Positions 8,020 through 60,133 of a stretch of DNA of 64,000 bases are shown here, one piece after another (within the stretch, counting starts at the first letter, position 1; each line of letters starts with the position of its first letter). Origin of the DNA: Rhodocyclaceae bacterium (GTDB lineage: Bacteria > Pseudomonadota > Gammaproteobacteria > Burkholderiales > Rhodocyclaceae); the NCBI GenBank assembly GCA_030682175.1, contig JAUXOM010000134.1:1-64000 (forward strand), given 5' to 3'. The position numbers were made by a program, and so were the translations under genes. Below the pieces are notes generated by a model. That model was not told the DNA's origin and ran no database searches. It saw nothing but the letters and a program-made list of their open reading frames with translations.

Positions 8020-8083
8020 GTCAGACCACGGTTTCCCTGCCCGAAACTTGGCGCTGGCGGGGCGGCAAAAACCGTGGTCTGAC
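8020..8083. repeat. 15-bp inverted repeat enclosing a diverged copy of the dispersed repeat
   Basis: GTCAGACCACGGTTT (8020-8034) is perfectly inverted at 8069-8083. The 34-base spacer contains AAACTTGGCGCTGGCGGGGC at 8044-8063, a diverged copy of the dispersed repeat found across this window. It lies between hsdR and the lipoprotein gene. From memory, GACCACGGTTT-type sequences occur at REP/RAYT elements in betaproteobacteria, but that cannot be checked here. It could also act as a large stem-loop between the two minus-strand units. Confidence 0.75.
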
Positions 8084-8137
8084 CACTGTTTTCGAAACAA
8101 CTAAGCTTGTGGCTTGGTTACACCCGAAAGCAAACAC

Positions 8138-9103
8138 TCATCGCCCATAAAGCTGCGTCAGTAGCTGCTGGAACGCAAACTGCCGCTCTGGCGGCGTGGC
8201 GCGGACAATGCCCTCGCGCTGAAATACATCGATCAGTTTGTGGGGCGTGACACCGGATTCGCCGACAATTTCGACGTGTCCTGCAGGCACCTCGACGTCA
8301 GTGGTTCGGGATGCCCGGGTGACCAGTGGATACCGCTGTTCGTCCAGGCTGAAGATATAGTCGTCTTCGATGCATCGGCCGGCATCGTCGCGACGACGGC
8401 ACGTGCCGCGCTCGTCGGTAACAACCTTGAGATGGCTGCGCACCTGGGGGATCAGACTGCCCGGCTGCTGGATGAAACCAGAGGCATGCGTGATCTCATA
8501 CCATTTATCCCCGCTGACGAGCCAGCAGGCCAGATCATTGAGGCCGAGCGAGGCGATGCGCAGCGCGGGGGACGCGCACATCCGCGCTGCAGCGATACCG
8601 GCAAACGGCGCCGAGACCGTAACCAGTCGCAGATCGATTTGGGTGTTACGCAACGGGTTGGGGGCGTTTTCGATGAGCGCCTTACGGGCAATGAGGCCAC
8701 CCATGCTGTGGCCAATTACCGTAATTTTCGGCGTGTCGAGATGCTGTGCAAGCGTATCAACAGCGTGAGCCATCTGGCCAGAACTCACCATGAGGCTATC
8801 GCGATCATCGTATTCGAAACAAGCGGTTTGCTGCCCATGAAAAGCCAGCACTTCAGCCAGCGCGTGAAACTTTCCAGTCGAGCCGTTGCAACCATGTACC
8901 AGTATGTTGATCGGCTGGCTCGGATCGATTTGCAGCGTACGCTCCATACCATCGTTACACGGACGAAGCCCGGCAACGCTCACTCCCTGTTGAGCGGAGG
9001 GCAGACGTCCCGGATCTGCTATTTCGATGGCATTAGGGCGAGGCTGGGTGGCGCAGCCACCCAAGATGCCAGCCAGTAGCAGCAATGCAAGATTCGGAGT
9101 CAT
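8138..9103 (-). CDS. alpha/beta-hydrolase lipoprotein
   Basis: A 321-residue predicted lipoprotein. A lipobox 'LAGILGGC' puts the acylated cysteine near residue 17, so the mature protein should sit in the envelope. The core is an alpha/beta hydrolase. 'NILVHGCNGSTGKF' resembles the oxyanion-loop HG motif, and 'VIGHSMGG' is the nucleophile elbow with its serine near residue 132. A later 'GHVEIVG' could supply the catalytic histidine. Substrate is unknown; an esterase or lipase activity is the natural guess. The ATG at 9103 has a GGA nine bases upstream and is preferred, while ATG 9109 has almost no spacing. It is not obviously co-transcribed with a neighbour. Confidence 0.85.
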   Translation of the reverse strand: MTPNLALLLLAGILGGCATQPRPNAIEIADPGRLPSAQQGVSVAGLRPCNDGMERTLQIDPSQPINILVHGCNGSTGKFHALAEVLAFHGQQTACFEYDDRDSLMVSSGQMAHAVDTLAQHLDTPKITVIGHSMGGLIARKALIENAPNPLRNTQIDLRLVTVSAPFAGIAAARMCASPALRIASLGLNDLACWLVSGDKWYEITHASGFIQQPGSLIPQVRSHLKVVTDERGTCRRRDDAGRCIEDDYIFSLDEQRYPLVTRASRTTDVEVPAGHVEIVGESGVTPHKLIDVFQREGIVRATPPERQFAFQQLLTQLYGR

Positions 9104-9336
9104 GGACATCAATCCAGTTCAACCACAATCGTCCAAGTGTTCGGACTTGATCGTTTAGGCTAGCACAGCAACTTGTTGCCTGTCGCGCTCAATCAATCTC
9201 AAGCCAAATTTCGTTACGTCGCCAGAACCATGGCTTCCAGGGCGGATCATAGCGAGCCCACACCGGCTCGCCATGCCGCAGCCCCGCCCCGTGGTGAGCA
9301 GGCGCCCTGATCCCCCCTGATAATGCATGGGATTAC

Positions 9337-9990
9337 TTATTTGCCGCCCCAGACTTCCTTGATCCGGTTATCCCGGCCGCAACTGCTGCGGTAGTAGTTG
9401 TAACGGATCGGATTCTTGATGTAGTAGTCCTGGTGGTACTCCTCGGCGGGATAAAACGCTGAAGCAGCGGCGATTTCAGTGAAGATCTGCGGCAGCTTGC
9501 CGCTTTTCAGCAATGCGTCGCGGCTCGCCTCGACGATCTTGCGCTCGGCCTCGTTCTGCCAATAGATGCCGCTGCGATATTGCGTGCCGACATCGCAGAA
9601 TTGGCGATCCTTCACCGTCGGATCGATATGCCGCCAGAAATATTCGATCAGTTGCTGATACTTGATTTTGGTCGGGTCATAGGTGATGCGCACCGCTTCG
9701 GTATGGCCGGTGCCGCCGGCGCTGACCTGCTCGTAGGTGGGATTGGGTGTTTTGCCGGCGGTATAGCCGGATTCCGTCGCGATCACGCCCGGTAATTTGT
9801 CGAAATCGGATTCCACGCACCAGAAGCAGCCACCGGCGAGGATGGCTGTCGCTGTCGTTACTGTCGCCGCTGTTGCGGGCTTCACGCCCTCTGCGGTCTT
9901 GCCTGGCTGGGCACCCACGACAGATCCGCTGCTGCCGAAAAGCAGAACTGCAACAGTCGCCAGACCGGACAATTTCAATTGGTTTTTCAT
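9337..9990 (-). CDS. msrA: peptide methionine-S-sulfoxide reductase, exported
   Basis: Repairs oxidised methionine (S-form) in proteins. The catalytic motif 'GGCFWC' places the active cysteine at about residue 55, followed by the family stretches 'GYTAGKTPNPTYEQVSAGGTGHTEAVRI', 'IDPTVKDRQFCDVGTQYRSGIY' and 'AEEYHQDYY'. About 45 residues precede the domain and begin with a hydrophobic signal-like segment, so this MsrA probably works in the periplasm. Later cysteines may resolve the disulfide. Its ATG overlaps the msrB stop by 4 nt, so the two repair activities are coupled. Confidence 0.95.
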   Translation of the reverse strand: MKNQLKLSGLATVAVLLFGSSGSVVGAQPGKTAEGVKPATAATVTTATAILAGGCFWCVESDFDKLPGVIATESGYTAGKTPNPTYEQVSAGGTGHTEAVRITYDPTKIKYQQLIEYFWRHIDPTVKDRQFCDVGTQYRSGIYWQNEAERKIVEASRDALLKSGKLPQIFTEIAAASAFYPAEEYHQDYYIKNPIRYNYYRSSCGRDNRIKEVWGGK

Positions 9991-10496: not shown

Positions 10497-10639
10497 GATT
10501 TCCTCCGTTATCAAGCGGATGACAGTTCTGCATCGACCATCCCGCCGTGATGGCTCTGCATCGGTAAAACAGGCTGACCGGGCGACGTTCCCGGACAAGT
10601 TCATTTGAGACGTCATGGCAGTTTGATAGTTCATTAAAA

Positions 10640-10911
10640 ACTGGCGCTTGCCTGCCGGCTGCGGTTGTGGCGGTGTTCGGCGTGCCCGATGAAAAATGGG
10701 GCGAGACGCCCGTGGCCGCGGTGGTATTGAAAGTCGGCGCTGGTGCGACGGCGGAAGAATTGTGCGACTGGTCAACGCGGGGGTTGCCGCCCGTTATCAG
10801 CGCGTCACGGCAGCGATCGTCCTGCCGGAATTTCCGCGCAATGCCGCCGGCAAGACGCTCAAGCGCAAGATGCGCGATCCCTACCGGGCCGGGCGCGCAA
10901 CGAAACTCTGA
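10640..10911 (+). pseudogene. C-terminal remnant of an acyl-CoA synthetase, frameshifted
   Basis: One frame reads '[19 protein letters not shown]' and continues to about 10770. The next frame then reads '[19 protein letters not shown]' and '[16 protein letters not shown]' to a stop at 10911. Together they match the C-terminal AMP-binding domain of fatty-acyl-CoA synthetases, including the catalytic lysine region '[11 protein letters not shown]'. The bulk of the gene is missing and one indel lies near 10765-10775. At 10730-10753 the sequence is a near-copy of the dispersed repeat, reading KVGAGATA here. Confidence 0.8.
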
Positions 10912-11023
10912 GCAGACGGCGGCAGGGTTCGCGGGCCGGCTGGCCACGACGATGCCGAGGATGACGCTCAATTGTTTCAGTTATTTGCACAACCCCAAGG
11001 GACATTCGGCTTGTCCCGTTCAG

Positions 11024-12691
11024 TCATGCCCCGCTATAACCCAGACCGAACACTTGTCCCGCAGTTCCCGTATGGTGTTTCCGCTGCGCCAGGTCATCGG
11101 CACGTTCGACCCGGTTGCGACCGCTGCGCTTGGCTTCGAGCAGGGCAGTATCGGCCAGGTTGATCAGTTCGGTTGAGGTGCAGGAATCCGGGAATGCGGC
11201 AATCCCGGCGCTGAAGCTGGCACGCAACGAACCTCCGCCGTGGGCGTGTGGCAGCTTGGCGAAGTCGCTGCGGATACGATCAATGACTACCCAGGCTTCA
11301 TCGGGACCGACATCGGGCAGGGCAAGAACGAACTCTTCGCCGCCGTAGCGACCGATGAGGTCGCTCCCGCGCAAGCGTCCCTTGAGCAGCCAGGCGAGGC
11401 TGCGGATCACCTGATCGCCCACCGGATGGCCGTAGGTGTCATTGACTGACTTGAATTTATCGATATCCAGCATGGCGACACACAGTTTGCCATCGGGCGG
11501 CAGCGTGGCCAGCATGGCATCGAGCCTGGACTTGGATGCGGTGTGTGTCAGCAGCCCGGTGAGGCCATCGTTGTGGCTGCAACGCTGCATTTCCCGATGG
11601 CGCTCGATCGTGGTTTTCAGGGTGGCGGCCAGTACCACCGGGTTGAAGGGCTTGGTCAGGAACTGGTCACCGCCCAGGCGCAGCGCTTCGACCTGCAAAC
11701 CGATGTCGGTTTCGCTGGACAAATACACAATGGGAATGGATTGATAGGCAGGCAATTGCCGCAATACCCGCGTTGCCTCGACACCGTTGCAATGCGGCAT
11801 GTACATGTCCATCAGCACCAGATCGGGACGGTAGGCATCCAGGGTAGCGAGCAGACCGGATGGATCGATGATGACCTCGCACTGGATGCCATGCTGATTC
11901 AAGGCACGCTGAATTTGCGCCACCGCCACCCGCGAGTCTTCGACCACCAGCACCTTGAAGCTCTCCTGTTCGCGGGTCTGGATGAAATCGAGGATCCTCG
12001 ACAGCAGGTTGGCGGCCTGTTCTTCGCGCTGAATGGTGATATCGATGCCGACGCGCATCAAGGTGACCATGACATCGAGTTCGCGCGGCACACCCACATA
12101 AAACAGCTGGGTGGCGGGACAACTGACGCGCGCCTGCTTGATCAGGGCCAGTTTCCCATCATCGATATGCTCATCGCTCGGGACGAAGATGATGGCAAAT
12201 GGCGCTTCACGCTGGGGCAGTGGCTCATCCCAACTCGACTCGACCACCCGGAAACCATAGAACGACAGTTGCTCGCGCAGCCCCTTGGCCCAACCGTTTT
12301 TCAGCTCGACGACCATCCACACGGTGCGCGGCCTGACCCATTCCGGCATGCCGAGCGCGGTCATTGTTTCGTTGATGCGCTTTTCGGTATCGACTGCGGC
12401 ATGGCGCGCGGTGAGGATTGCGCCCAACAGCGGACCGACCCGCTGATCGAGTGTCGTCACGCTTTGTTCGGCAAGCGGGTGCGTGGAGGGGTCGCCAAAC
12501 AAAGCCAGCGCCGCGTTTTCCAGGCTCTCGCACTGACGCACCAGACCGGGCAGCCGGAGGCGAGTCAGTTGCTCGGCCAGGCTGTTCAGCGCCAGGGTGA
12601 ACTCAACGAAGCGGTCAAATGAGCCGTCATCGCGATAGGCCTGCCAGCGCTGCTGGACAGCATCAATATGACCACCGACATCGTGCGACAT
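11024..12691 (-). CDS. response-regulator diguanylate cyclase
   Basis: A 555-residue cytoplasmic signalling protein. About 130 helical N-terminal residues are followed by a degenerate receiver-like region (about 120-240). A clear receiver domain comes next ('[15 protein letters not shown]', phospho-acceptor in 'LVLMDMYMP', 'FLTKPFNP'). The C-terminal GGDEF domain has the active-site motif 'RYGGEEF'. An RxxD inhibitory site (RGSD) stands five residues before it, so product inhibition by c-di-GMP is likely. No EAL domain is present. It probably makes c-di-GMP when phosphorylated by an unlinked kinase. An AGGAGGT lies 11 nt before the ATG. No partner kinase is adjacent. Confidence 0.92.
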
Positions 12692-12730
12692 GAACTGTCA
12701 TGACCTCCTTGGTGGCAGCGATTATAAGAG

Positions 12731-12754
12731 CGCCGTACCGCCAGCGCCGACTTT
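12731..12754 (-). repeat. dispersed repeat, short form (intergenic)
   Basis: The plus strand reads CGCCGTACCG + CCAGCGCCGACTTT, the reverse complement of the 24-bp consensus with one change. It lies in the 116-bp gap between recN and the diguanylate cyclase gene. No terminator is obvious in this gap. Confidence 0.85.
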
Positions 12755-12807: not shown

Positions 12808-14478
12808 CTATATTCCCAGCATCTCCCGCGCGTGCCGGCGTGTGGTGTCGGTAATTTTCACGCCACCCAGCATGCGGGCGACTTCCTCGACACGGCCATC
12901 GGGGTCGAGCGGCGTGACGCGGCTGACAGTGGCGACACCGCCATTCTCGCTGCGGGTTTCCTTGGCAATCGACCATTGCCAGTCGGCGCGCGCCGCGACC
13001 TGCGCCAGATGGGTGACGCACAGCACCTGGCGGTCCGTGCCGAGTTGCTTGAGCATCTGGCCGACGATTTCGGCGACGCCGCCACCGATGCCGACGTCGA
13101 CTTCGTCGAAGATCAGCGTGCCGACCGCGTGGGACTGGCTGGCGATGACTTGCAGGGCGAGGCCAATGCGGGAAAGTTCGCCTCCCGACGCTACCTTGGC
13201 GAGTGGCCGCAGCAGCTGGCCGGCATTCGCGGTGACCAGAAACTCGACGGCTTCGCGTCCGTAAGAGGCGGCTTCGGCGAGCGGCGACAAGGCCACCTCG
13301 AAACGACCGCCGGCCATCGCCAGTTCCTGCATGGCGGCACTGACGGCCTTGCTCAGCGCTGTTGCAGCGCGGCTGCGTTCGGCAGTGAGGCGCTTTGCCA
13401 GATTGCCGTAAGCCGCCGCCGCATGCTGCTCGCGCTCGGCCAGCGCCGCGGGATCGGCGGCAAGCGTCAGCTCATGCAGACGCGCGGCCAATCTGGCATG
13501 CACAGCGGATAGTTCTTCCGGCGCGGCGCGGTGCTTGCGTGCCATCTGCGTCACGGCGTCGATGCGCGCATCGAGTTCGGCCAGGCGGGCGGGATCGAGA
13601 TCGAGCCGCTCGCGATAGCGCCGTAGCGCCAGCGCCGACTCTTGCAACTGGATCAGCGCACTGTCGAAAAGCTCTGCGGCTTCGCCCAACGCAGTATCGT
13701 AGGCGGTCAATTCCGTGAGCCGCACGCTGGCATGCTGCAAGGCCGGCAGCGCCGCAGCGCCGTCACCCTGGCCTTCGTCAAGCACAGCCAGTGCGGCATC
13801 GCTGGCTTCGAGCAGGCTGGCGGCATGGGCGAGCCGGCGCTGTTCCTGCTCGGTTTCCTGCCATTCCTGCGCATCGAATGCCAGTGCGGCGAGTTCCTTG
13901 ACCTGCCAGTCAAGCAGTTCGCGTTCGCGTGTGCTGGCTTCAACATCCTTTTCCGCAGCCAGACGCGCCGCGCTGGCATTGCGCCAGACAGCGTGAGCGG
14001 CGGCCACGTCCCTGGCCAGTGACTGTGCCCCGGCATGCGCATCGAGCAGGGCGCGCTGGGCATCGGCGCGCAGCAACGAGTGGTGCGCATGCTGGCCATG
14101 AATGTCGGCCAGGAAATCCGCCGCTTCGCGCAACTGGCCCAGCGTTGCCGCCGCGCCGTTGAGGTAGGCCCGCGAACGACCGCCGGCATCGACGATGCGG
14201 CGCAGAATGCAGGTGTCGGAGTCGAAATCGTTGGCCGCCAGCCAGTCGGCCAGCGGCGTGCCGGGCGTCACGGCGAATTCGGCGGAAACCTCGGCCTTCT
14301 CGGCACCGGCCCTGACCAGGCTGCCATCGCCGCGTTCGCCGAGCGCCAGCGACAGCGCATCGACGAGGATCGACTTGCCCGCGCCGGTTTCGCCGGTCAG
14401 CGCGCCAAAGCCGGCCGCGAACTCAAGTTCGAGCCGGTCGACAATGACGAAATCGCGAATGACGAGGCGCAGCAGCAT
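12808..14478 (-). CDS. recN: DNA repair protein RecN
   Basis: An SMC-like ATPase acting in double-strand break repair, 556 residues, the usual length. The N-terminal ATPase half has Walker A 'GETGAGKS' at about residues 30-37 and the 'LADIHGQHAHHSLL' motif. A long coiled coil (about 150-360) follows. The C-terminal half has the ABC signature 'ASGGELSRIGLALQVI' and Walker B 'TLIFDEVDVGIGG'. The sequence at 13621-13643 closely resembles the dispersed repeat and encodes part of the coiled coil, though the residues fit RecN well. It is followed downstream by a short-form repeat copy and preceded by nadK, all on the same strand. Confidence 0.97.
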   Translation of the reverse strand: MLLRLVIRDFVIVDRLELEFAAGFGALTGETGAGKSILVDALSLALGERGDGSLVRAGAEKAEVSAEFAVTPGTPLADWLAANDFDSDTCILRRIVDAGGRSRAYLNGAAATLGQLREAADFLADIHGQHAHHSLLRADAQRALLDAHAGAQSLARDVAAAHAVWRNASAARLAAEKDVEASTRERELLDWQVKELAALAFDAQEWQETEQEQRRLAHAASLLEASDAALAVLDEGQGDGAAALPALQHASVRLTELTAYDTALGEAAELFDSALIQLQESALALRRYRERLDLDPARLAELDARIDAVTQMARKHRAAPEELSAVHARLAARLHELTLAADPAALAEREQHAAAAYGNLAKRLTAERSRAATALSKAVSAAMQELAMAGGRFEVALSPLAEAASYGREAVEFLVTANAGQLLRPLAKVASGGELSRIGLALQVIASQSHAVGTLIFDEVDVGIGGGVAEIVGQMLKQLGTDRQVLCVTHLAQVAARADWQWSIAKETRSENGGVATVSRVTPLDPDGRVEEVARMLGGVKITDTTRRHAREMLGI

Positions 14479-16624: not shown

Positions 16625-16630
16625 GGTTTA

Positions 16631-16678
16631 AAAGTCAGCTTGACCGAAGGGAATCCCCGTGGGACTGGCAGGACGGCG
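16631..16678 (+). repeat. dispersed repeat, long form with the 24-base insertion module
   Basis: AAAGTCAGCT is followed by TGACCGAAGGGAATCCCCGT + GGGA and then CTGGCAGGACGGCG. Compared with the short form, it carries one additional 24-base module. It lies in the divergent gap between the orphan methyltransferase and hrcA, just upstream of the region expected to hold the hrcA promoter. Confidence 0.8.
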
Positions 16679-20161: not shown

Positions 20162-21318
20162 ATCTCGACGCCGAACTGGCAGCGCTGGCCGCGGCCGGCC
20201 TGTTGCGCCGTCCCGCCAGCGCCGACTCTTGCTGCGGTCCGGAAATGATCCTCGACGGCCGGCCGCTGCTCGCCTTTGCCAGCAACGACTATCTCGGCCT
20301 GGCCGCCGACCCGCGGCTGGTTGAAGCCGCCGTCGCGGCGGTCCGCCGCTGGGGCGTCGGTGCCGGCGCCTCGCATTTCCTCGGCGGCCATTTCCGGCCG
20401 CATCAGGAACTGGAGGAGCAGCTTGCCGCCTTTGTCGGCGCGGAGCGCGCGCTGTTCTTTTCCACCGGCTACATGGCCAACCTCGGCGTGGTCCCTGCGC
20501 TGGCCGGGCGCGGCGACGTCATCTTCGCCGACAAGCTCAACCACGCCTCACTGATCGACGCGGTGCGCCTCTCGTTGGCATTCAACCACCGCTATCCGCA
20601 CCTCGATGTCGCCGTGCTGGAAGGGCAACTGACCGCCAACCGCGCCAAGCAGCGGCTGATCCTCACCGATGCCGTCTTCAGCATGGATGGCGACATCGCG
20701 CCGCTACCGGAACTCCTGGCGCTCGCCGAAAGCTACGACGCCTGGCTGGTGGTCGATGATGCCCACGGCTTCGGCGTACTCGGTCCGCAAGGTCGCGGCA
20801 CACTGGCCCACCACGGTCTCAAGCCGGGTGGCCGCATCCTGCTGATGGGCACGCTCGGCAAGGCGGCCGGGGTCGCCGGCGCTTTCGTCGCGGGCGACAG
20901 CACAGTCATCGAGTGGCTGACCCAGAAAGCGCGCACGGCCATGTTCACCACCGCCACGCCGCCCATGCTGGCCGCGGTTTTGCAAGAAAGCCTGAAACTC
21001 ATTGAATCAGCAGACGACCGCCGCGCGCACCTCCAATCATTGATCGCCCGCTTAAGGGCCGGACTGGCACCGCTTTGCGCCCGCAGCGGCTGGCGGCTGC
21101 CGCCCTCGAGCACGCCGATCCAGCCGCTCGTCATCGGCGACAACCATGCGACCGTCGCGCTGGCCGAAGCCTTGAAGGCGCACGGCGTCTGGGCGCCAGC
21201 GATCCGTCCGCCGACCGTGCCTGAGGGTCAGGCGCGCTTGCGCATTTCGCTCTCCGCCGCGCACACCGAAGCACAGGTGGATCGGCTACTCGACGCGCTC
21301 GCGGAAATCACGCGGTGA
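20158..21318 (+). CDS. bioF: 8-amino-7-oxononanoate synthase, with a repeat-derived N-terminal patch
   Basis: Condenses pimeloyl-ACP with alanine to give KAPA. At 386 residues it has '[15 protein letters not shown]', '[16 protein letters not shown]' and the PLP lysine in '[15 protein letters not shown]'. Residues about 17-24, 'RRPASADS', are encoded by a near-perfect copy of the dispersed repeat (20207-20230) just before the '[17 protein letters not shown]' motif. The region is variable in the family, so the enzyme should tolerate it. The start overlaps the bioA stop. The bioF stop overlaps a GTG start of bioH. Confidence 0.95.
20207..20230 (-). repeat. dispersed repeat, short form, inside bioF
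   Basis: GCCGTCCCGCC + AGCGCCGACTCTT on the plus strand matches the reverse complement of the consensus with one substitution. It is read in the frame giving RRPASADS within BioF. Confidence 0.85.
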
Positions 21319-22010: not shown

Positions 22011-22860
22011 ACGCGCCGACAAACGTGCAGTTCGCCAGTCCTTCGACCGCGCCGCCGCCAGCTACGATTCAGTGGCCGGCCTGCAGCGGCAGGTCTGCGA
22101 ACTGCTGCTCGCCGCTCTGCCAGCGCCGACTTTGTTAGCCCCCCACGCTCGCAACCCCGGCTCGCCGCCCCCCACCCCCAGAGGGGGCAATCCGCTGACG
22201 TCGGCTTGGGGCGGCCCGGCGCCGACTGTTGCCTCCACGATCCTCGATGCCGGTTCCGGCACCGGCTACGGCCAGCGCCTGCTCGCCGCACGGTGGCCGG
22301 CTGCGCGGCTGGTCGCCGCCGACTTTGCCCACGCGATGTTGATCGGTTCGGCAGGCGAGCGGATCTGTGCCGACATCGAAGCGCTGCCCTTGCCAGCAGA
22401 CGCCTTCGACCTTTACTGGTCGAGCCTGTCGATCCAGTGGTGCGACACGCGACGAGTCATTGCCGAGGCTGCCCGCGTGCTTTCCCGCGGCGGGGTGCTC
22501 GCCGTCAGCACTCTGGGCACCGGTACCCTGGCCGAATTGCACCATGCCTTTGCCGGTGTTGACCAGCACCGCCATGTACTTGAATTTTCTCCGGAACAAC
22601 TGCTGGCGGACGCCTGCGCCACGGCGGGCTTGCGCAATGTGACGCTGGAAACCCGCAGTATCCGCCGCTACCATCCCGACCTGAAAACATTGTTGCGCAC
22701 CCTGAAATCGCTCGGCGCGAATCAGGTCGGGGCAAACCGCCGGCCGGGACTGTTCGGTCGCCAGGTCTGGCAAGCGGTCGAGGCGCGCTACGAATCCCTG
22801 CGGGAAGATGCCGGTCTGCCCGCGACTTACCAGGTAATTCTATGCACCGCGCTGAAATGA
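22003..22860 (+). CDS. bioC: malonyl-ACP O-methyltransferase with an in-frame repeat insertion
   Basis: Methylates malonyl-ACP to start pimelate synthesis. At 285 residues, 'SFDRAAASYDSVAGLQRQV' and the SAM motif 'ILDAGSGTGYGQRLL' are standard. Between them, about 38 residues (39-77) rich in Pro, Gly and Ala are not expected in BioC. They are encoded by repeat sequence at 22115-22232 and read 'PAPTLLAPHARNPGSPPP' and onward. The frame stays open and the rest of the protein is intact. The insertion falls just before the SAM-binding strand, where a loop could be tolerated, so the gene is probably functional, though this needs testing. ATG 22003 overlaps the bioH end. The stop overlaps bioD (ATGA). 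Confidence 0.92.
   Translation: MNERADKRAVRQSFDRAAASYDSVAGLQRQVCELLLAALPAPTLLAPHARNPGSPPPTPRGGNPLTSAWGGPAPTVASTILDAGSGTGYGQRLLAARWPAARLVAADFAHAMLIGSAGERICADIEALPLPADAFDLYWSSLSIQWCDTRRVIAEAARVLSRGGVLAVSTLGTGTLAELHHAFAGVDQHRHVLEFSPEQLLADACATAGLRNVTLETRSIRRYHPDLKTLLRTLKSLGANQVGANRRPGLFGRQVWQAVEARYESLREDAGLPATYQVILCTALK
22115..22232. repeat. composite repeat insertion in bioC
   Basis: The left edge carries half of the dispersed repeat (TGCCAGCGCCGACTTTG, 22119-22135), and the right edge a partial copy (GGCGCCGACTGTTGCC, near 22218-22233). Between them lies a second element with a CCCCC-AGA-GGGGG hairpin (22175-22187) and TTGGGGCGGCCCGGCG (22206-22221). A related element is at 36459-36496. The nested arrangement looks like one repeat inserted into another. 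Confidence 0.75.
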
Positions 22861-23614: not shown

Positions 23615-23683
23615 AAAGTCGGCGTGACCGAAGGAAATCCCTTTGGGACTGGCGGAATGAAATGCCCCGTAGCGGGTACGGCG
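23615..23683 (+). repeat. dispersed repeat, longest form (both extra modules)
   Basis: This copy contains every module: AAAGTCGGCG, TGACCGAAGGAAATCCCTTT + GGGA (24 bases), CTGGCGG, then a 23-base stretch containing TGCCCCGTAGCGGGTA in place of the usual GA, and CGGCG. The last module has a small CCCG-TAG-CGGG hairpin. Because the additions are 24 and 21 bases, the frame starting KVG stays open to the AGTA end. It lies about 70 bp upstream of the start at 23755. Confidence 0.85.
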
Positions 23684-23754
23684 ACCGACTAAAGCTGGCT
23701 TCCCGAACGTCGTTACCCTCCTGATGGGCAAGCTTTGCCCGGAGGAGAAGACTC

Positions 23755-24930
23755 ATGAAAATCGCCAGTAGCGAGCTTGCCCTGCAAGCCGACCATGCTG
23801 CGCAGACGCGCCAGCAAAGCAGTGAAACCCTGCGTGCCTGGCGTGGCGAACGACCGGATTTTGAACGCGCGGACCGGCCGGCCCTACCCTCTACCATCGC
23901 CAGCATTTCGACCGCGGCGCGCCAGGCATTTGCCGCCGTCCCTGATTTGCGCGGTCTTCCGGCTATCGCTGCCCAAAATTTACGCGGTGTTCCGGCTGTC
24001 GCCGTCCCACCAGCGCCGACTTTTGCGGCAGACCAAACCGACACATCCCAAGCCCAGGCCATCGACGCCGCCTTCGAAGCCGCCGACAAGGATCCTTTTC
24101 TTGTCCTCATCAGGCACATGATCGAGATGCTGACCGGCGAGAAGGTACGGACCCTTGATGTTGAAGCTTTTTCTGCGGAAATGCGGCGCAGTGCGCATGG
24201 CACTGAGGCGATCGCGGCGAGCACGGCGGCGACCGGCAGCAATCAAGCTGCCGGCTTCGGCATCGAATACGACTACCACGCCATCCGCGAAGAAATCGAA
24301 ACCAGCCGGTTTTCCGCCCAGGGCGTGGTGCGCACCGCTGACGGGCAGGAATTCAGCTTCCAGTTGAACCTTGAAATGACCCGTTACTACCGGGAAGAAA
24401 CCAGCGTCAGCCTGCGTGTCGGCGATGCCGTGCGCAAGGACCCGCTGGTCGTCAATTTCGGCGGCACGGCAGTGCAATTGGCCAGTCTGGCAAACCAGCG
24501 TTTCAGTTTCGACCTCGACGGCGACGGCCAGGCAGAAAACCTGCCCTTGTTCGCCTCGGGCAGTGGCTATCTGGCGCTGGACCGCAACCACAATGGCCGC
24601 ATCGACTCCGGCAAGGAACTGTTTGGCCCGCAAACCGGCAAGGGATTCGCCGAACTGGCCCGCCTCGATGCCGACGGCAATGGCTGGATCGACGAAAACG
24701 ATCCGGATTTCAAGCACCTGGGTGTTTGGGTACCGGCCAGCACCGGCCCCGGCTCGCTGAAAACACTGGCCGATCTGGGCATCGGCGCCCTCGCGCTGGC
24801 GCATGCCACGACGCCGTTTGCCCTGCGTGACAGCGAGAACAGGGATCAGGGGCAGGTCAAGGCGAGCGGACTCTATCTCAGTGAATCCGGCCAGGCCGGC
24901 AGCCTGCAGGAGATCGATTTGACGGTTTAA
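23755..24930 (+). CDS. uncharacterised protein with EF-hand-like calcium loops
   Basis: A 391-residue protein with no signal peptide or membrane segment. The C-terminal third has three acidic calcium-loop-like motifs: 'DLDGDGQAENLPLF', 'DRNHNGRIDSGKELFG' and 'DADGNGWIDENDPDF'. Similar uncharacterised proteobacterial proteins share the 'LDxNxNGxIDxGxELFG' pattern. The N-terminal 110 residues are low-complexity and include a tandem 11-residue repeat ('DLRGLPAIAAQ', 'NLRGVPAVAVP') followed by 'PPAPTF' from the dispersed repeat. A GGAGGAG precedes the ATG, and a GGGCAA-GCT-TTGCCC hairpin lies directly before that site. Function is unknown. A secreted or surface calcium-binding protein is possible, but the sequence gives no export signal. 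Confidence 0.8.
   Translation: MKIASSELALQADHAAQTRQQSSETLRAWRGERPDFERADRPALPSTIASISTAARQAFAAVPDLRGLPAIAAQNLRGVPAVAVPPAPTFAADQTDTSQAQAIDAAFEAADKDPFLVLIRHMIEMLTGEKVRTLDVEAFSAEMRRSAHGTEAIAASTAATGSNQAAGFGIEYDYHAIREEIETSRFSAQGVVRTADGQEFSFQLNLEMTRYYREETSVSLRVGDAVRKDPLVVNFGGTAVQLASLANQRFSFDLDGDGQAENLPLFASGSGYLALDRNHNGRIDSGKELFGPQTGKGFAELARLDADGNGWIDENDPDFKHLGVWVPASTGPGSLKTLADLGIGALALAHATTPFALRDSENRDQGQVKASGLYLSESGQAGSLQEIDLTV
23942..24024 (-). repeat. 33-bp tandem repeat plus a dispersed repeat copy, inside the EF-hand-like gene
   Basis: ATTTGCGCGGT-CTTCCGGCT (from 23945) recurs as ATTTACGCGGT-GTTCCGGCT (from 23978), a period of 33 bases or 11 codons. It runs straight into GCCGTCCCACC + AGCGCCGACTTTT (24001-24025), a dispersed repeat copy read as AVPPAPTF. 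A similar CCGATTTACGCG segment stands beside the repeats in tex (45299-45310). Confidence 0.75.
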
Positions 24931-30202: not shown

Positions 30203-30382
30203 AGCGCTGCTCCACGTCTTGCTAAAAGTACAATTAAAACGCACGGCTGTATCTTGTTGATGACGCCATGGCAGCAGAACGTAAGCGAATGTTGCAGCCT
30301 GCTATCTGATGAATGATCTCGCCTTCATCGATAGGCCCATGCGGGCTGGCGCCATCCATATCGACACAATAGAACAATTGGC

Positions 30383-30438
30383 GCCGTCCCGCCAGCGCCG
30401 ACTATTGCCGGCGCTCCAAACCCCGACTTTTGCCGGCG
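30383..30438 (-). repeat. dispersed repeat, one full and one partial copy
   Basis: GCCGTCCCGCC + AGCGCCGACTATT (30383-30406) matches the short-form consensus. CCCCGACTTTTGCCGGCG (30421-30438) is a second partial copy. CCGACTNTTGCCGGCGC is shared by both, so this is a local duplication. It lies in the 250-bp gap between purA and the secreted protein gene; nothing else is evident in that gap. Confidence 0.8.
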
Positions 30439-36879: not shown

Positions 36880-36933
36880 ATCAGCTGCACCGGTGTGGCC
36901 GCAGGAAATCCCCGGGGGATTGGCGGTACGGCG
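36880..36933 (+). repeat. dispersed repeat, diverged long form
   Basis: GCAGGAAATCCCCGGGGGAT + TGGCGGTACGGCG (36901-36933) matches the second half of the long form seen at 16631-16678, while the first half is eroded. It lies between hfq and the sigma-54 regulator gene, just downstream of the latter. The rest of this 155-bp gap shows no gene. Confidence 0.65.
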
Positions 36934-44284: not shown

Positions 44285-44335
44285 CTTTGGCAGTTTCCCC
44301 CATGCGCACGACGAACGCCATCAATTCAGATTAAC

Positions 44336-44388
44336 GCCGTCCCGCCAGCGCCTACTTTGCGGGGATTACGCAAGCCAAACCCCGCAAA
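44336..44388 (-). repeat. dispersed repeat, short form, fused to a 9-bp inverted repeat
   Basis: GCCGTCCCGCC + AGCGCCTACTTTGC (44336-44360) is a copy with one change. Its end, TTTGCGGGG (44356-44364), pairs with CCCCGCAAA (44380-44388). It lies between the porin terminator and the toxin-antitoxin genes. The rest of this gap (44389-44497) probably holds the toxin-antitoxin promoter; no further motif is clear. Confidence 0.8.
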
Positions 44389-45206: not shown

Positions 45207-47657
45207 TCAGCGCTTCAGCTTGGCAAACGCGGCCGCCATTGTCCCTGTCGGCTCGGGTTGGCGCTGCGCGGAGCGCGACGCTCCGGCTGACGCCGTCCCC
45301 GATTTACGCGACGCGGCGGCTGGCGCCGTCCCGCCAGCGCCGACTTTTGGCGCGATGGTAGGACGTCCCATTTCCCCGCCAGCGCCGACTTTTGGCGCGT
45401 TGGTGGGACGTCCCATTTTCGCGCCAGCGCCGACTTGTGTATCTCGCTCAGCAGGCTTGCGCACTGCATCGTCAGTCAGGCGCATGGTGAGCGCGATGCG
45501 CTTGCGGGGCAGATCGACTTCCAGCACCTTCACCTTCACCACGTCACCAGCTTTGACGACAGTATGCGGGTCTTTGACGAAGGTATTGGCGAGCGCCGAG
45601 ATATGCACCAGGCCGTCCTGATGCACGCCGATGTCGACAAAGGCGCCAAAGTTGGTGACGTTGGTGATCACGCCTTCGAGCTGCATGCCCGGCTCAAGGT
45701 CCTTGAGCGTCTCGACGCCGTCGCGGAATGAGGCTGCCTTGAATTCCGGGCGCGGGTCGCGGCCGGGTTTTTCGAGTTCCTTGAGAATGTCCCGCACAGT
45801 GGGCAGACCGAAGCGCTCATCGGTGTATTTTCCGGCATCCAGGGCGCGCACCGCGCGGCCGTCGCCAATCAGTTCCTGCACGCCTTTTTTGATGTCTTTG
45901 ATGATGCGTTCCACCACCGGGTAAGCCTCCGGGTGCACGGCCGAGGTGTCGAGCGGATTTTCCCCGCCATTGACGCGCAGGAACCCGGCAGCCAGTTCGA
46001 AGGTCTTGTCGCCGAGGCGCGGCACTTTCTTCAACTCGGCACGCGAAGTAAAGGCGCCATTGCTGTCCCGGTGGCTGACGATATTGGCAGCGAGCGTGCC
46101 GTTGAGGCCGGAGATGCGCGCCAGGAGCGCCACCGAGGCGGTATTGACATCGACACCGACAGAATTCACGCAGTCCTCCACCACGGCATCGAGGCTCTTC
46201 GCCAGCTTGCTCTGATTGACATCGTGCTGATATTGGCCGACGCCGATGCTCTTGGGATCGATCTTGACCAGTTCCGCCAGCGGGTCTTGCAGGCGGCGGG
46301 CAATTGAGACGGCGCCGCGCAGGGTGACATCAAGATCGGGGAATTCGCGGGCGGCCAGCTCGGAAGCGGAATACACCGATGCGCCGGCCTCCGACACGAC
46401 GATCTTGGTCAGCTTGAGTTCAGGGTGGCGTTTCATCAGCTCACCCGCCAGCTTGTCGGTTTCACGACTGGCCGTGCCGTTGCCGATGGCGACCAGTGCC
46501 GCGCCATGCTTTTGCGCCATGCGCTGTAGCGCATGCAGGCTGCCTTCCCAATCGCGGCGCGGTTCGTGCGGGTAGAGCGTGGCGGTTTCCAGCAGCTTGC
46601 CGGTGGCATCGACGACGGCGGCCTTGACGCCGGTGCGGATGCCAGGATCGAGGCCGATCACCGTCTTCGGACCGGCCGGCGCGGCGAGCAGCAGATCGTG
46701 CAGGTTGCGCGCAAAAACGCGGATCGCCTCGGCCTCGGCGCGTTCGCGCAATGCCCCCATCAGCTCGGTTTCGAGATGCAGCGAGAGCTTGACCAGCCAG
46801 GCCCAGCGCGCGGTTTCCGCCAGCCACGGGTCTGCCGCCCGGCCCTGCTCGCGGATGCCGACATGACCCGCGACCATGGCGATGCACGGCGAAGGCTCGG
46901 GCGGATCACGCAGCTCGGCCTCGGTCTTGAGCGATACACGCAAAACGTCCTCGTTGCGACCGCGAAACATGGCCAGCGCGCGATGCGAAGGCACCGACTT
47001 GAGCGGCTCGCGGAAATCGAACCAGTCGCGAAATTTCGCGCCTTCCTGCTCTTTCCCGGCGACGACGCTGGACACGATCAGCGCATGTTCGTTGAGATGG
47101 TTGCGCAGCTTTTCCAGCAACGCGGCATCCTCGGCAAAACGCTCCATCAGTATCTGCCGCGCACCTTCGAGCGCGGCCTTCACGTCGGGAACGTGCTTCT
47201 CGGGAGGCTCTTTTTCCAGATTCACATAGCGTGCCGCTGCGGTTTCGGGGTGCAGGGTCGGGTCATTGAACAAGGCATCGGCCAGCGGCTCCAGCCCGGC
47301 CTCGCGGGCGATCTGCGCCTTGGTGCGGCGTTTCTGCTTGTAGGGCAGATAAAGGTCTTCGAGGCGCTGCTTGGTCTCGGCATTCTCGATGGCGCCCTGC
47401 AGTTCGGGAGTGAGCTTGCCCTGCTCCGCGATGCTGGCCAGCACCGTGGCACGGCGCTCTTCGAGCTCGCGCAGATAGCCGAGCCGTTCTTCCAGCGTGC
47501 GCAACTGCGTGTCATCGAGGTTGTCGGTCACCTCCTTGCGGTAGCGGGCGATGAACGGTACGGTCGCGCCCTCGTCGAGCAACTGCACGGCGGCGATGAC
47601 CTGGGCGGGGCGAACGCCGATTTCCGCAGCGATGCGGTCTGGAATGGATGGCAGCAT
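45207..47657 (-). CDS. tex: Tex-type S1 RNA-binding transcription accessory protein, repeat-extended tail
   Basis: An 816-residue nucleic-acid-binding protein. It has the Tex N-terminal domain ('[21 protein letters not shown]'), a YqgF-like nuclease fold ('[25 protein letters not shown]'), helix-hairpin-helix motifs ('[16 protein letters not shown]') and a C-terminal S1 domain ('[31 protein letters not shown]'). The last 75 or so residues are unusual. A 15-residue unit is repeated ('[15 protein letters not shown]', '[15 protein letters not shown]', then '[12 protein letters not shown]'), built from dispersed repeat copies at 45325-45438. It starts 3 nt after slyX. The domain part is normal, so the tail is an added, probably disordered extension. 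Confidence 0.95.
45299..45438 (-). repeat. three 45-bp tandem units built on the dispersed repeat, inside tex
   Basis: CGCCAGCGCCGACTT cores start at 45332, 45377 and 45422, a period of 45 bases (15 codons), separated by GGTAGGACGTCCCATTT-like linkers that contain the palindrome GGACGTCC. Read on the minus strand they encode VGAGG units. A CCGATTTACGCG stretch beside them (45299-45310) resembles sequence next to the copy at 24001. This is not CRISPR: the units are coding, adjoining and nearly identical throughout. Confidence 0.85.
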
Positions 47658-47863: not shown

Positions 47864-48777
47864 TCGTCGGCCAAAGTCGGCGCTGGCAGGACGAAGTGCC
47901 CCGAAGCGGGTACGGCGGCAGCGAGCATCGCCGCGCGTGATGCGGGCGTTTCGAGGCTGATGCGCCCCAATGCGCCGCTGCGGTAGTCGGTGAGCAGGAT
48001 CATCGCCGCCTTTTCCAGGACGAGTTCGCCGCCCCGGCCCTTGATGATGCAGCCGCGTTTTCTGGCGACGGTTTCGACGACAGCGACGGCATCCATCGCC
48101 GCGACATCCATTTTGTAACGCGCGGCGAGGAGCGACGGATAACGGGACAACAAAATACCGGCAAGGAAAATGGCGACGTCGGCATCGATCACCGCGTTGC
48201 GGCCGATGGCGTGGCTGGCGGCGAGCATGTAGCCATCTTCATCGTGTTCGATTTTCGGCCACATCAGACCCGGTGTGTCGATGATGGTCTGCCGCAATGA
48301 AAGGTCGAAACTCTGCTGGCTCTTGGTGACAGCCGGCTCGTCGCCGACCGCCGCGATGCGGCGCTTCAGCAGCGCGTTCATGAAGGTCGATTTGCCGACG
48401 TTGGGGATACCCATGATCATCATGCGCAGCGGCTTCACATTGTCGTCGCGGTGCGGCGCCAGTTGCTGGCAGAGGGCCGGCACTTTCGCGGCGTCGCCCG
48501 GCTTCTTGCATGATATGGCCACCGCCTTTACGCCCGGCTGGCGACTGTAGTGGTCGAGCCAGGCCTGCGTGACGACGGGATCGGCAAGGTCGGCCTTGTT
48601 CAGCAGTTTGAGACAGGGCCGCTGGCGTGCCAGACGCAGTTCGCGGATCATCGGATTGCTGCTCGCCTCGGGCAGGCGGGCATCGAGCACTTCGATCACC
48701 ACGTCAGTGCGCGCCATGGTCTCGGCAGCTTTTCTGCGCGCCGAGGTCATGTGGCCGGGAAACCACTGGATGGACAT
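47860..48777 (-). CDS. ylqF: YlqF/RbgA-type ribosome-biogenesis GTPase with a repeat-derived C-terminus
   Basis: A circularly permuted GTPase that acts in late 50S assembly, 305 residues. The opening 'IQWFPGHMTSARRKA' is the family signature. G4 'LLNKADL' comes before G1 'GIPNVGKSTFMNALL' and G3 'DTPGLMWP', which shows the permutation. The C-terminal domain follows. The last 19 or so residues ('[17 protein letters not shown]') are encoded by a medium-form dispersed repeat at 47873-47918, so the natural stop may have been replaced. Co-transcribed with slyX and tex. Confidence 0.94.
   Translation of the reverse strand: MSIQWFPGHMTSARRKAAETMARTDVVIEVLDARLPEASSNPMIRELRLARQRPCLKLLNKADLADPVVTQAWLDHYSRQPGVKAVAISCKKPGDAAKVPALCQQLAPHRDDNVKPLRMMIMGIPNVGKSTFMNALLKRRIAAVGDEPAVTKSQQSFDLSLRQTIIDTPGLMWPKIEHDEDGYMLAASHAIGRNAVIDADVAIFLAGILLSRYPSLLAARYKMDVAAMDAVAVVETVARKRGCIIKGRGGELVLEKAAMILLTDYRSGALGRISLETPASRAAMLAAAVPASGHFVLPAPTLADE
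47873..47918 (+). repeat. dispersed repeat, medium form, at the 3' end of ylqF
   Basis: AAAGTCGGCG + CTGGCAGGACGAAGTGCCCC + GAAGCGGGTACGGCGG. It lacks the 24-base module but has the 21-base one, with its CCCG-AAG-CGGG hairpin. It is antisense to ylqF and supplies that gene's final codons. Confidence 0.82.
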
Positions 48778-55530: not shown

Positions 55531-55533
55531 GAC

Positions 55534-56178: not shown

Positions 56179-56188
56179 TGTCAGCGTG

Positions 56189-56677
56189 TTACCTGTAAGG
56201 AGCGTCCAAAGCGCGATTCTTGGCGATTACCGGCTCATAGCGATCGCCATTGGCCAGCAGCATCTGTTTGGTGTAGTGGAGATCACCACGCGTTTCGCCG
56301 TGATATTCGAAAATGTGGGTCTCGACGATGGCATCCACCGGGCAGGCTTCTTCGCAGAAACCGCAGAAGATGCACTTGGTCAGGTCGATGTCGTAGCGTG
56401 TCGTCCGGCGGCTGCCGTCCTCGCGTTGCTCACCTTCGATGGTGATCGCCAGCGCCGGACAGACCGCTTCACACAACTTGCAGGAAATGCAGCGTTCCTC
56501 GCCGTTGGGGTAGCGGCGCAAGGCATGCAGGCCGCGGAAGCGGAAGCCTTGCGGCGTCTTCTCCTCCGGATACTGGACCGTGATCTTGCGGGCGAAGAAG
56601 TAACGCCCGGTCAGGCTCATGCCCTTGAAAAGCTCCGTCAGGAACAGGCTTTTAACAAATTCTTTCATGGCACCCAT
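56189..56677 (-). CDS. nuoI: NADH-quinone oxidoreductase subunit I
   Basis: A 162-residue iron-sulfur subunit that carries clusters N6a and N6b towards the quinone. Two 4Fe-4S motifs are '[12 protein letters not shown]' and '[16 protein letters not shown]'. '[16 protein letters not shown]' is the family signature. The ATG at 56677 is used; ATG 56668 three codons in gives 'MKEFVKSLF', also common for this family. Confidence 0.97.
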
Positions 56678-56696
56678 GCTTGTCTTTTGTCCTCTC

Positions 56697-57773
56697 TTAT
56701 TGCCAGATGTTGAAAGGCGTCAACATCCAGATGGCGACAACAATGATCCAGACGAAACAGAGCGGGAGGAACACTTTCCAGCCAAGACGCATGATCTGGT
56801 CATAGCGATAGCGCGGGAAGGTGGCACGGAGCCAAAGGAACAGGAATAGCAGAACCGAGATCTTGGCGATCAGCCACCAGATTCCATCCGGCAGGAATCC
56901 CACCGGCGAAAGCCAGCCGCCAAGAAACAGGATGGAAACCGCCGCCGACACCAGAATCATGTTGGCGTATTCGGCGAGGAAGAACAGGGCAAAGGCCATG
57001 CCCGAATATTCAACCATGTGGCCGGCGACAATCTCGGACTCGCCTTCAACCACGTCGAAAGGCGAACGATTCGTTTCGGCCACACCCGAGACCAGGTAAA
57101 CGAAGAACATGGGCAGCAACGGCAACCAGTTCCACGACAGAATGCCAATACCCATTTCCGCAAACATGCCGCGGCCCTGGCCAGCAACAATTTCCGAAAG
57201 GTTGAGGGTGTTCGAAATCATCAGCACCACGATCAGCGCCATGCCCATCGAAACCTCGTAGGAGATCATTTGCGCTGTCGCCCGCATGGCCCCCATGAAC
57301 GCGTATTTGGAGTTGGAAGCCCATCCGGAAATGATGATGCCGTAGACACCGAGCGAACTGACCGCCAGAAGGTAGAGTACACCGGCATCGATATCGGCCA
57401 ACACCAGGCCGGCATCGAAGGGGATTACCGCCCAGGCTATCAGGGCCGGCGCCAGGGCCATGATGGGTCCCAGCACGTACAGCACCTTGCTGGCCTGGGT
57501 GGGTACGATGATTTCCTTGAACACCAGTTTGAGCGCGTCGGCAATCGGCTGCAACAAACCTGCGGGGCCGACGCGGTTGGGGCCGATGCGCACATGCATG
57601 TAAGCGATGACCTTGCGCTCGAAATAGGGCAAATAGGCTACCGCTGCGACCACCGGAGCGAGGATCGCGACGATCTTCATCAACGACCAGAGCAACGGCC
57701 AAACGGGTTCGACCAGGGACCACTGCGTGCCCAACTGGCTCTGGAGGAATTGCAGGAGCTGTGCTTCCATCAT
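56697..57773 (-). CDS. nuoH: NADH-quinone oxidoreductase subunit H
   Basis: A 358-residue membrane subunit that forms the quinone entry site with NuoB and NuoD. It has '[38 protein letters not shown]' and '[37 protein letters not shown]', the two best-conserved regions. Its start overlaps the nuoG stop (ATGA). Confidence 0.98.
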
Positions 57774-60133
57774 GCGCGCTCCACGGTCAGGTTTGCAAAC
57801 ATCGGGCCAAGTCCAACGGTCGAAGCATGTGCCGCAGCGACCCGGACACAGTTGTCAGGGACCCCATCATCGAGTCGGGCAAGCAACGTCGCCGTCCCGC
57901 CAGCGCCGACTTTTACCATGTCGCCGGCCGCCACGCCCAGCTTGGCCAGAGTTGCCGCGTTGATGCGGGCGCTCGGGACGCTGGCGTCAGCGGTGGCCTG
58001 CAGGCTGGATGCCCGCCGCACCAGGGCATCGGCAAAATGGATCGGCACATCGGCAATCCGCTCGATGCCAGCAGCGGCCGTCGGGATTTCCTTGGCAATG
58101 CCGTCGATGGCGTTGTCGAGGCCGGAAACGAAATCGGTCTTGCCACCCAGCAATTCGTCGCGCACCTGTTCGGAACTTTCGTAATTGAAGCCGTCAAGTT
58201 CGAGAATGTTGCCCAGCACGCGCAACACCTTCCAGGCCGGACGGGTTTCACCCTGCGGCTTCACCACGGCATAGAAACTTTGCACCCGGCCCTCGGTGTT
58301 GATGAAGGTTCCGGAGGTTTCGCTGAAGGGCGACACCGGCAACAGGACATCGGCGTAATCGAGTGCCGCCGCCGACTTGTAGGAAGACAACGCGATCACG
58401 CTGCTGGCCTGTTGCAGTGCCGCCAGGGCACGCGCACCGTCGGCGCAGTCGAATTCGGGCTCGGTACCAAGCAGCAGATACAGCTTGCGCGGAGCCGCCA
58501 GCATGGCTGCCGCGTTCATGCCATCAGCCACGGGGATCGCGCCGGCGACGTAACCGCCGACGCTGTTGGCGGCCTCGCCGAGAAAACCGAACCTGGCACC
58601 CAGCAGACCGGCGAGTTGCTGGGCCAGCGCATTGAGGAGCGCGGCTTGCGGATGCTGCTGGGCGAAATTGCCGAGCAGGATCGCCGCATTGCTGCCCGCC
58701 ACGAGGCTGGCGGCGATCTTTTGCGCCGTCTCCTGGTTGGCGGCGGACCCGGCTGACGCCGTTCCGCCAGCGCCGACTTTTGCCAGGGCGGGATCTGCGG
58801 CGATGCCCTTGAGCGCAGCGACGGCCTTGACCACCGCGGCAAGTTGCGTCGGCAGTTGCGACGGCGCGACCGTCGCTTGCGCGAACAGCTTGATCAGCAG
58901 ATTATCCTGGGCAGAGTGAACAAGGGAAATCTGCGCACCCTTTTTCGCCGCCTGACGCAGTCTCTGGGCGAGCAGCGGGTGATCCTTGCGCAAGAAACTG
59001 CCCACTACCAGTACGCGGTCGAGCGTGTTGAGTTCGGCTACCTTCATGCCCAACCAGGGCGTGCCCTTGCGTTTGCCATCGGCCGAAAAATCGGCCTGGC
59101 GCAAACGGAAGTCGATGTTCTTGCTGCCGATGCCATGCGTCAGCTTTGCCGCCAGCGTCATTTCTTCAAGCGTGGCATGCGGACTCACCAGCATGCCGAT
59201 TTCGGCCGCTCCATGATTCTTGGCGACATCGCGTAGCGCATGCGCGGCGTAATCAAGCGCGACGTTCCAGTCGACCTCCTGCCACTTGCCGCCCTGCTTG
59301 ACCATCGGCCGGGTCAGCCGCTCGGTGCTGTTCAGGCCTTCATAGGAAAAGCGTTCCTTGTCCGAGAGCCAGCATTCGTTGAGCTGCTCGTTCTCGAGCG
59401 GCAACACGCGCTTGACGTGATCGTGCTGGGTCTGGACGATCAGATTGCTGCCGAGACCATCATGCGGACTGACCGACTTGCGGCGCGCCATTTCCCAGGT
59501 GCGCGCGGAAAACCGGAAGGTCTTGGAGGTCAGCGCGCCGACCGGGCACAGATCGATGATGTTGCCGGAGAGTTCCGAGTCGACCGTTTTTTCGACGAAG
59601 GACATGATCTCGGCGCGATCGCCGCGGAACGCCTGGCCCAATTCCATCAGGCCGGAGATTTCCTGGGTAAACCGTACGCAACGCGTGCAGTTTATGCAGC
59701 GGGTCATGTCGGTGGCAACCAGCGCACCGAGATTCTTGTTGGAAACGACGCGCTTCTCTTCCTGGAAGCGGGCGGCACTGCTGCCGTAGCCGACGGCAAG
59801 ATCCTGCAACTGACACTCGCCGCCCTGGTCGCAGATCGGGCAGTCGAGCGGATGGTTCATGAGCAGAAACTCCATCACATCCTTCTGCGCCTTGACGGCC
59901 AGAGCGGAATGCGTAAAGACCTTCATGCCCTTGGCCACGGGTGTCGCACAAGCCGGCATCGGCTTGGGTGCCTTCTCGATTTCCACCAGGCACATGCGGC
60001 AGTTCGCGGCAATCGAAAGCTTCTTGTGATAGCAGAAGTGCGGAATGTAGATACCGGCGGCATGGGCCGCCTCGATCAGCATCTTGCCTTCTTCAACCTG
60101 CAGCGGCTTGCCGTCGATTTCAATTTCTAGCAT
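57770..60133 (-). CDS. nuoG: NADH-quinone oxidoreductase subunit G, with two repeat-derived insertions
   Basis: The large iron-sulfur subunit of the peripheral arm, 787 residues. The N-terminal ferredoxin domain has '[15 protein letters not shown]', the His-Cys3 cluster segment follows with '[10 protein letters not shown]', and the next cluster has 'CINCTRC'. A molybdopterin-oxidoreductase-like C-terminal domain follows without the cofactor role. At residues about 451-459 and 740-747 it contains KVGAGGTA, each encoded by a dispersed repeat copy (58758-58781 and 57891-57914). Both lie in the variable C-terminal domain, far from the iron-sulfur clusters. ATG 60133 overlaps the nuoF end by 7 nt; the longer frame is not supported. 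Confidence 0.95.
57891..57914 (-). repeat. dispersed repeat, short form, in the 3' part of nuoG
   Basis: The plus strand reads GCCGTCCCGCC + AGCGCCGACTTTT, a perfect match to the consensus. On the coding strand it reads KVGAGGTA in '[15 protein letters not shown]'. Confidence 0.9.
58758..58781 (-). repeat. dispersed repeat, short form, in the middle of nuoG
   Basis: GCCGTTCCGCC + AGCGCCGACTTTT, one change from the consensus, read KVGAGGTA in '[15 protein letters not shown]'. It is preceded by GGCTGAC, which also precedes the repeat region in tex (45286-45291). Confidence 0.9.

Follow-up and report, generated by a model that had tools for sequence, protein, structure and literature searches.

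A dispersed 24-bp repeat in Rhodocyclaceae as a putative self-DNA label of the uptake-sequence type

The stretch analysed here, 64,000 nucleotides of contig JAUXOM010000134.1 of a Rhodocyclaceae bacterium (assembly GCA_030682175.1; hereafter the window), carries a short repeat, the 24-mer AAAGTCGGCGCTGGCGGGACGGCG, which recurs between and inside genes. What kind of element is this repeat, and how did it come to lie at so many places? We consider it somewhat probable that the 24-mer is a putative self-DNA label, analogous to the DNA uptake sequence (DUS) of the Neisseriaceae and the uptake signal sequence (USS) of the Pasteurellaceae, in one lineage of Rhodocyclaceae. The wider statement, that it is a third, independently evolved DNA-uptake watermark of 24 bp with related words in eight genera of one family and clade-leaning spellings, seems to us only just on the favourable side of even. 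We draw the match with DUS and USS because the motif seems to have arisen mostly in place, its spelling leans by clade, it is conserved at third codon positions and, in the one complete genome tested, it has no replichore bias and is missing from a 150-kb island.

Twelve copies with at most three mismatches, two of them exact, lie in the window, and 100 dinucleotide shuffles of the window gave none (mean 0, maximum 0). The source genome (G000; 3,493,354 bases in 153 contigs) holds 567 copies at the same threshold, 296 on one strand and 271 on the other, with at least about 100 exact ones among the matches listed, and the reversed pattern has no match in the whole genome. The initial annotation had claimed a dispersed repeat far above chance and had tied this claim beforehand to a genome count exceeding a control; at 567 against none it stands. 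Copies with one to six mismatches far exceeded 40 permuted motifs in the genomes G000, G009, G017 and G002, and the excess was weaker in G026 and G028. Among motif-free samples searched up to five mismatches, G006, G021 and G024 had no copy, G020 one at five, and G023 one each at four and five. An alignment of 44 copies placed sharp borders at 24 bp, and the sole conserved position in the flanks was the base before the unit, which is A in 64% of the copies; the information content of the unit is 35-39 bits. Words of the 24-mer top the over-represented 12-mers in samples of G000 and G017 (159 and 220 kb) and are not among the top ones of G020, G021, G023 and G024. In the motif-free relative G023 (L306-L314, L203) a different repeat family is strongly over-represented, with 12-mers such as AGGGAAGCTCCC and CTCCCACAGGGA.

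The unit had been described as non-palindromic, and the 24-mer indeed folds no better than shuffles (z -0.20). The same was found for its long forms (z -1.01, 0.81 and 0.10), and a structured element was rejected on these grounds. All six reading frames of the 24-mer are open, as had been noticed. The selection for openness that had been proposed to account for this is not needed, since 54% of permutations of the 24-mer are open as well and the spelling used in genus g11 is not open in six frames; among random 24-mers from the relative G021, 47% were open.

In the genus of the source genome, 18 of the 19 genomes (G000-G018) carry 184-660 copies, about one per 5-15 kb, and G006 carries none. 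Elsewhere in the family, 18 genomes were searched (G019-G036): G026 carries 738 copies, G019 carries 510 and the remaining 16 carry 0-5. Outside the family but within the order, the highest count in 24 genomes is 4. With the pattern reversed, G012, G035 and G048 yielded a single match apiece and all others none. A degenerate pattern found at least 10 matches in 17 of 150 family genomes, belonging to eight genera with related words (g1, g2, g9, g11, g47, g62, g70 and g88), 1-7 matches in 28 and none in 105; its control found none in all 150. Among the matches listed, records with exact copies are mostly titled Rhodocyclaceae and Sulfuritalea, single loci being titled otherwise.

The spelling of the unit leans by clade. 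Counted as A:G, the last base is mostly A in G002 (30:0), G004 (82:0), G013 (124:4), G017 (82:2) and G001 (97:25), and mostly G in G000 (21:136), G008 (9:160), G010 (22:164), G015 (16:175) and G009 (15:107). Four congeners end the unit in GGCA almost without exception, five mostly in GGCG, and at least five are mixed; G005 and G016 have few exact matches to either form of the last base. Two sites in nuoG carry the spelling of their own species in most congeners, with G001, G003 and G007 as exceptions. Three genomes of g11 (G028, G114 and G161) have AAAGTCAGTC with variants of CCGGCGGGACGGC after it, and in g90 three genomes have 5-6 matches apiece, most of which, among the matches listed, are AAAGTCAGTCGTGGCGGGACGCC or similar to it.

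Comparison of orthologous places between congeners showed both retention and turnover. From G017 to G002, 26 of 38 copies align across, of which 16 are shared at three or fewer mismatches, 6 have a partner with 4-6 mismatches, 2 an internal insert and 2 no partner motif; all 20 in-gene copies align without a motif gap, and 7 of them face a degenerate partner with 4-7 mismatches, giving graded states. In the reverse direction 20 of 29 align across, and 13 of 14 in-gene copies are gap-free. From G000 to G009, 14 of 36 copies could be aligned across the site: 9 are shared, 3 face an insert and 2 face no partner motif, and 4 of 6 in-gene copies are gap-free. From G009 to G000, 11 of 25 align across, with 7 of 7 in-gene copies gap-free. 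Over the four directions, 9, 5, 9 and 6 copies were dropped because the ortholog did not span the site, and 13, 9, 3 and 3 because there was no ortholog. In genes, identity at third codon positions is higher within the motif than in the flanking sequence, which is conservation at the DNA level: it was 123 of 139 against 870 of 1128 and 87 of 93 against 580 of 769 for G017 and G002, and 30 of 32 against 194 of 240 and 52 of 55 against 330 of 413 for G000 and G009, in counts that omit sites with more than six mismatches or an insert.

The 128 copies in four genome samples fall in genes (76), on a gene edge (3) and between genes (49), as placed by a home-made Markov gene finder that called 73-92% of the sequence coding. 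The in-gene copies are read mainly as KVGAGGTA (32), AVPPAPT (18), KSALAGR (13) and RRPASADF (11), and the two Arg-rich frames are nearly unused, with one copy each (2 of 76). The claim that the same few peptides are written into many proteins is borne out by these copies, which sit in genes in several frames. Profiles back the identities of NuoG, BioF, RecN, BioC, YlqF, Tex and an AMP-binding C-terminal fragment; the host genes nuoG, tex, bioF, bioC and ylqF had been named correctly, and an open reading frame (ORF) called EF-hand-like matched no family in either library.

Strand and spacing were studied in G017, a complete genome in one contig (200/202 copies at one mismatch or fewer). The copies show no replichore strand bias by arc (p 0.69), with strands at 102/100. 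The largest copy-free gap at this threshold measures 167 kb, and within it 150 kb (C1 1,798,513-1,948,678; L367-L374) hold no copy even at four mismatches or fewer, where about 30 would be expected; a control stretch of 219.5 kb holds 44. The second-largest gap, at 887-961 kb, contains weaker copies and is not empty. Of 87 ORFs of at least 250 aa picked around the island, Pfam was searched with 20, which left 4 without match and gave an ordinary symporter for 1, and PADLOC with 5, of which 4 belong to the Pfam 20. Genes of DISARM, prophage and metal-efflux type occur in the island. Its products include DrmA, DrmB and DrmD of DISARM, one tape-measure and one phage tail protein, a D5-type primase, two S49 peptidases, a ParB-methylase, CusS, an AcrB-type pump and a metal-type P-ATPase, and a tRNA-Phe lies 6.6 kb inside its right end. 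The island looks foreign, and the scarcity of the motif within it follows the pattern of uptake sequences. An atypical distribution of DUS in mobile elements is described in PMC7371117.

These data also bear on the possibility that the 24-mer is bound by a protein that organises the chromosome or processes DNA, such as a nucleoid protein, or is a signal like Chi or KOPS (FtsK-orienting polar sequences), and would be kept by host selection and not by uptake. Conservation of the DNA in place and shifts of spelling would fit such a site too, and the density between genes, about 2-5 times that in genes by our gene finder, speaks for it. However, 35-39 bits over hundreds of sites would be unusually strict for a protein-binding site, which moreover gives no particular reason to expect a foreign island free of the motif. 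The motif in G017 is neither confined to one chromosome region nor biased by replichore strand as Chi or KOPS would be, and a Chi or KOPS signal was rejected on the strand result from this genome. Taken together, we regard a protein-binding site as rather unlikely.

The initial annotation favoured a mobile or converting element, and we weighed a mobile or copying 24-bp element, inserting in and between genes, against origin by substitution. In bioF, the residues RRPASADS of the source genome are replaced by others at equal length in eight family relatives; one alignment, of G009 with G020, has a 2-residue gap. At the first nuoG site of G017 (KVGAGETA) the alignments with G020, G021, G022 and G024 are free of gaps, unlike the one with G023, and the second is gap-free against all five outgroups (G020-G024), G000 being one residue shorter there. 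A glycosyltransferase has two in-place motif sites, as judged by profile and outgroup alignment. To summarise such cases, orthologous gene sites were grouped, one member standing for each group, and compared with motif-free outgroups. Thirteen of the 24 groups were gapless in every outgroup alignment, two of these being four-mismatch sites that may be chance, and 7 had smaller or mixed gaps; 4 groups had a full-length 8-residue gap at the motif. Clean presence or absence in orthologs had been anticipated, and these 4 groups are compatible with it. Gaps occurred in 17 of 42 motif windows against 12 of 84 flank windows. When flank identity of at least 50% was demanded, which kept 137 of 226 alignments, a gap was seen at the motif in 70 alignments and in the flanks in 34, nuoG supplying most of them, and 14 of 30 outgroup-by-site pairs had no motif gap in any member. 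We conclude that the motif probably arose mainly by substitution in place at conserved gene sites, and that it tends to lie where proteins are prone to gaps. True insertion may account for some sites, since four groups have the full 8-residue gap and the motif is gapped more often than its flanks.

Mobility as the main mode found no support: most alignable conserved gene sites show replacement at equal or near-equal length, with graded intermediates in place, target duplications of 3 bp or more show no excess in 122 copies, and the 150-kb island has no copy. Repeats of 2 bp flanking the same copies are in slight excess (15 against 9.3). The lack of an excess of longer target duplications speaks against a miniature inverted-repeat transposable element or another transposed element, and 4 of the 24 groups are compatible with clean insertion in this species-level comparison. 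In favour of mobility are the sharp borders with random flanks, the many exact copies, the 21-bp units attached to the motif and the gaps at some gene sites, for example L144, L121, L004, L016 and G017 104326; because of the gapped sites we retain mobile insertion as a rival, albeit a distinctly unlikely one. Viral sequences add a further point, in that 40 of 2.9 million viral contigs carry the exact 23-mer and 15 of these 40 loci carry further copies. The loci hold 70 copies at three or fewer mismatches in 381 kb; once the seed copies are set aside, their density is about 73 per Mb, compared with 162 per Mb in G000. They are not informative on a phage origin of the 24-mer. One of them, L330, has five copies 316-385 bp apart at 883-2238.

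It is highly improbable that the repeat is a repetitive extragenic palindromic (REP) element moved by RAYT (REP-associated tyrosine transposase, TnpA-REP) enzymes: G000 has three Y1_Tnp matches and some copies lie beside inserts with short inverted repeats, but a PF01797 match is lacking in 13 of 18 motif-rich congeners, including G017 (one contig) and G002 (three contigs), and present in 5, which refutes RAYT as a general mechanism, and the 24-mer does not fold and is common inside genes. What it has in common with REP elements is that both are short repeats dispersed over the chromosome. The palindromic elements of Rickettsia, named initially as the nearest precedent, are longer palindromic insertions. 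They resemble the 24-mer in writing in-frame peptides into many proteins and differ from it in that the 24-mer mostly replaces residues at equal length and is no palindrome.

The uptake-type label compares as follows with the known systems. In PMC3630211, DUS is described with hundreds to thousands of copies in and between genes, as part of the core genome, and with clade dialects that show some mixing. The 24-mer resembles DUS, whose receptor is ComP, in all these respects, and differs in length (24 bp against 10-12), lower density, lack of inverted pairing, unrelated sequence and occurrence in another family. USS arises by substitution in pre-existing genes, as established by the same gap test as used here (PMC1626085), and has two spellings by clade (PMC12616744). 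The 24-mer likewise has spellings that lean by clade and, at most conserved gene sites, probably arose by substitution, whereas USS has a 9-bp core with less conserved flanks instead of 24 contiguous bp and gaps at motif sites are commoner in our case. If the 24-mer is such a label, a surface or type IV pilus-associated receptor would prefer labelled DNA, and transformation and recombination would bring alleles that carry the label to the corresponding position in other cells. Labels would then accumulate wherever the protein tolerates them, and an altered receptor preference would shift the spelling. For the competence machinery, which was sampled through ComEC, 17 of the 18 motif-rich congeners have this protein.

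Several points weigh against an uptake label, among them the gap counts and the sites omitted from the third-codon counts given above. ComEC also occurs in motif-free genomes, G006 included; it does not discriminate and is therefore only a necessary condition. At 24 bp and with its information content, the motif is longer than published uptake sequences, and its density is below that of DUS. Inverted pairing is absent in G017, where only 2 neighbour pairs closer than 600 bp occur among 200 copies, one of them inverted; frequent inverted pairs are a usual by-feature of DUS and USS and not what defines uptake function. Spacing in G017 is clumped (coefficient of variation 1.16, p 0.019), and the strand and island tests rest on this one genome. 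The last base is mixed (A:G) in G003 (68:104), G011 (97:69), G012 (50:68), G014 (95:73), G018 (32:31) and G007 (31:10), and G026 uses AAAGTCGGTG and AAAGTCGGCG, that is GGTG and GGCG, about equally. Finally, some copies have inserts in or beside the motif.

These inserts appear among the copies and partial forms of the window, which are:

8044-8067, plus strand: degenerate copy with 4 mismatches, flanked on both sides by an inverted repeat at about 8018-8084
10730-10753, plus: copy with 2 mismatches in ORF 10568-11173, which has an AMP-binding_C match (frame KVGAGATA); present in G009 too
12731-12754, minus: copy with 1 mismatch outside predicted genes; extra units of the 21-bp type at the G009 counterpart
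13619-13642, minus: copy with 3 mismatches in recN (QESALALRR); two outgroups align gap-free
16631-16678, plus: split form, left part, insert and CTGGCAGGACGGCG
20206-20229, minus: copy with 1 mismatch in bioF (RRPASADS), the site where eight relatives in the family differ in residues but not in length
22110-22133, minus: copy with 3 mismatches in bioC (PAPTL); gapped against relatives
23615-23683, plus: longest form, with both inserts
24000-24023, minus: copy with 1 mismatch in ORF 23725-24927, without family match
30382-30405, minus: copy with 1 mismatch outside predicted genes; right part alone kept in G009 in the best alignment
36905-36933, plus: partial form, insert and TTGGCGGTACGGCG
44335-44358, minus: copy with 1 mismatch
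45324-45347, minus: exact copy at the C-terminal end of tex (KVGAGGTA); two more left halves up to 45438
47873-47917, plus: copy with a 21-bp insert in the C-terminal part of ylqF; common to G009
57890-57913, minus: exact copy, second nuoG site (KVGAGGTA)
58757-58780, minus: copy with 1 mismatch, first nuoG site (KVGAGGTA); the next 33 bp recur in 4 of the 15 congeners that were aligned
21-bp units: window 23663 and 47897; contig C7 92953, 126430, 132433-132454 and 137448; L025 1458-1500

About 17 places had been listed initially. Eleven of the 17 are copies with three or fewer mismatches, 0-9 bases from the coordinate given, and the other six are weaker: the one at 8044 has four mismatches, those at 16631 and 23615 have an insert inside the unit, the one at 36880 has the right part only, and, of the three at 45325-45438, two consist of the left part alone. 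The twelfth copy, in recN, had been overlooked. The arms around the degenerate copy at 8044 are GGTCAGACCACGGTTT and AAACCGTGGTCTGACC, and ACCGTGGTC also comes after several long forms on contig C7. At the C-terminal end of tex, 45324-45438 holds a 45-bp array carrying three left halves of the motif; other places in G000, G010 and G015 match with coding fragments of a similar kind. The 21-bp unit consists of TGCCCCGNNGCGGGTA followed by CGGCG or TGAAA; all 10 units found by one regular expression over part of the source genome are attached to a 24-mer, at 7 places. A relative of this unit lies in frame inside nuoG of G009.

The need for an uptake sequence was described in 2013 as unique to Neisseria and Pasteurellaceae (PMC3630211). 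A literature search, with most subscription journals outside it, returned no paper on the 24-mer or on an uptake sequence in Rhodocyclaceae. A third lineage, if true, would offer an independent test of whether uptake bias writes a word into the genome and its proteins, and a test of what receptors read the label. The receptor could then be found as a surface or pilin protein that changes with the spelling. Many proteins of these bacteria would carry peptides set by a DNA label and not by protein function.

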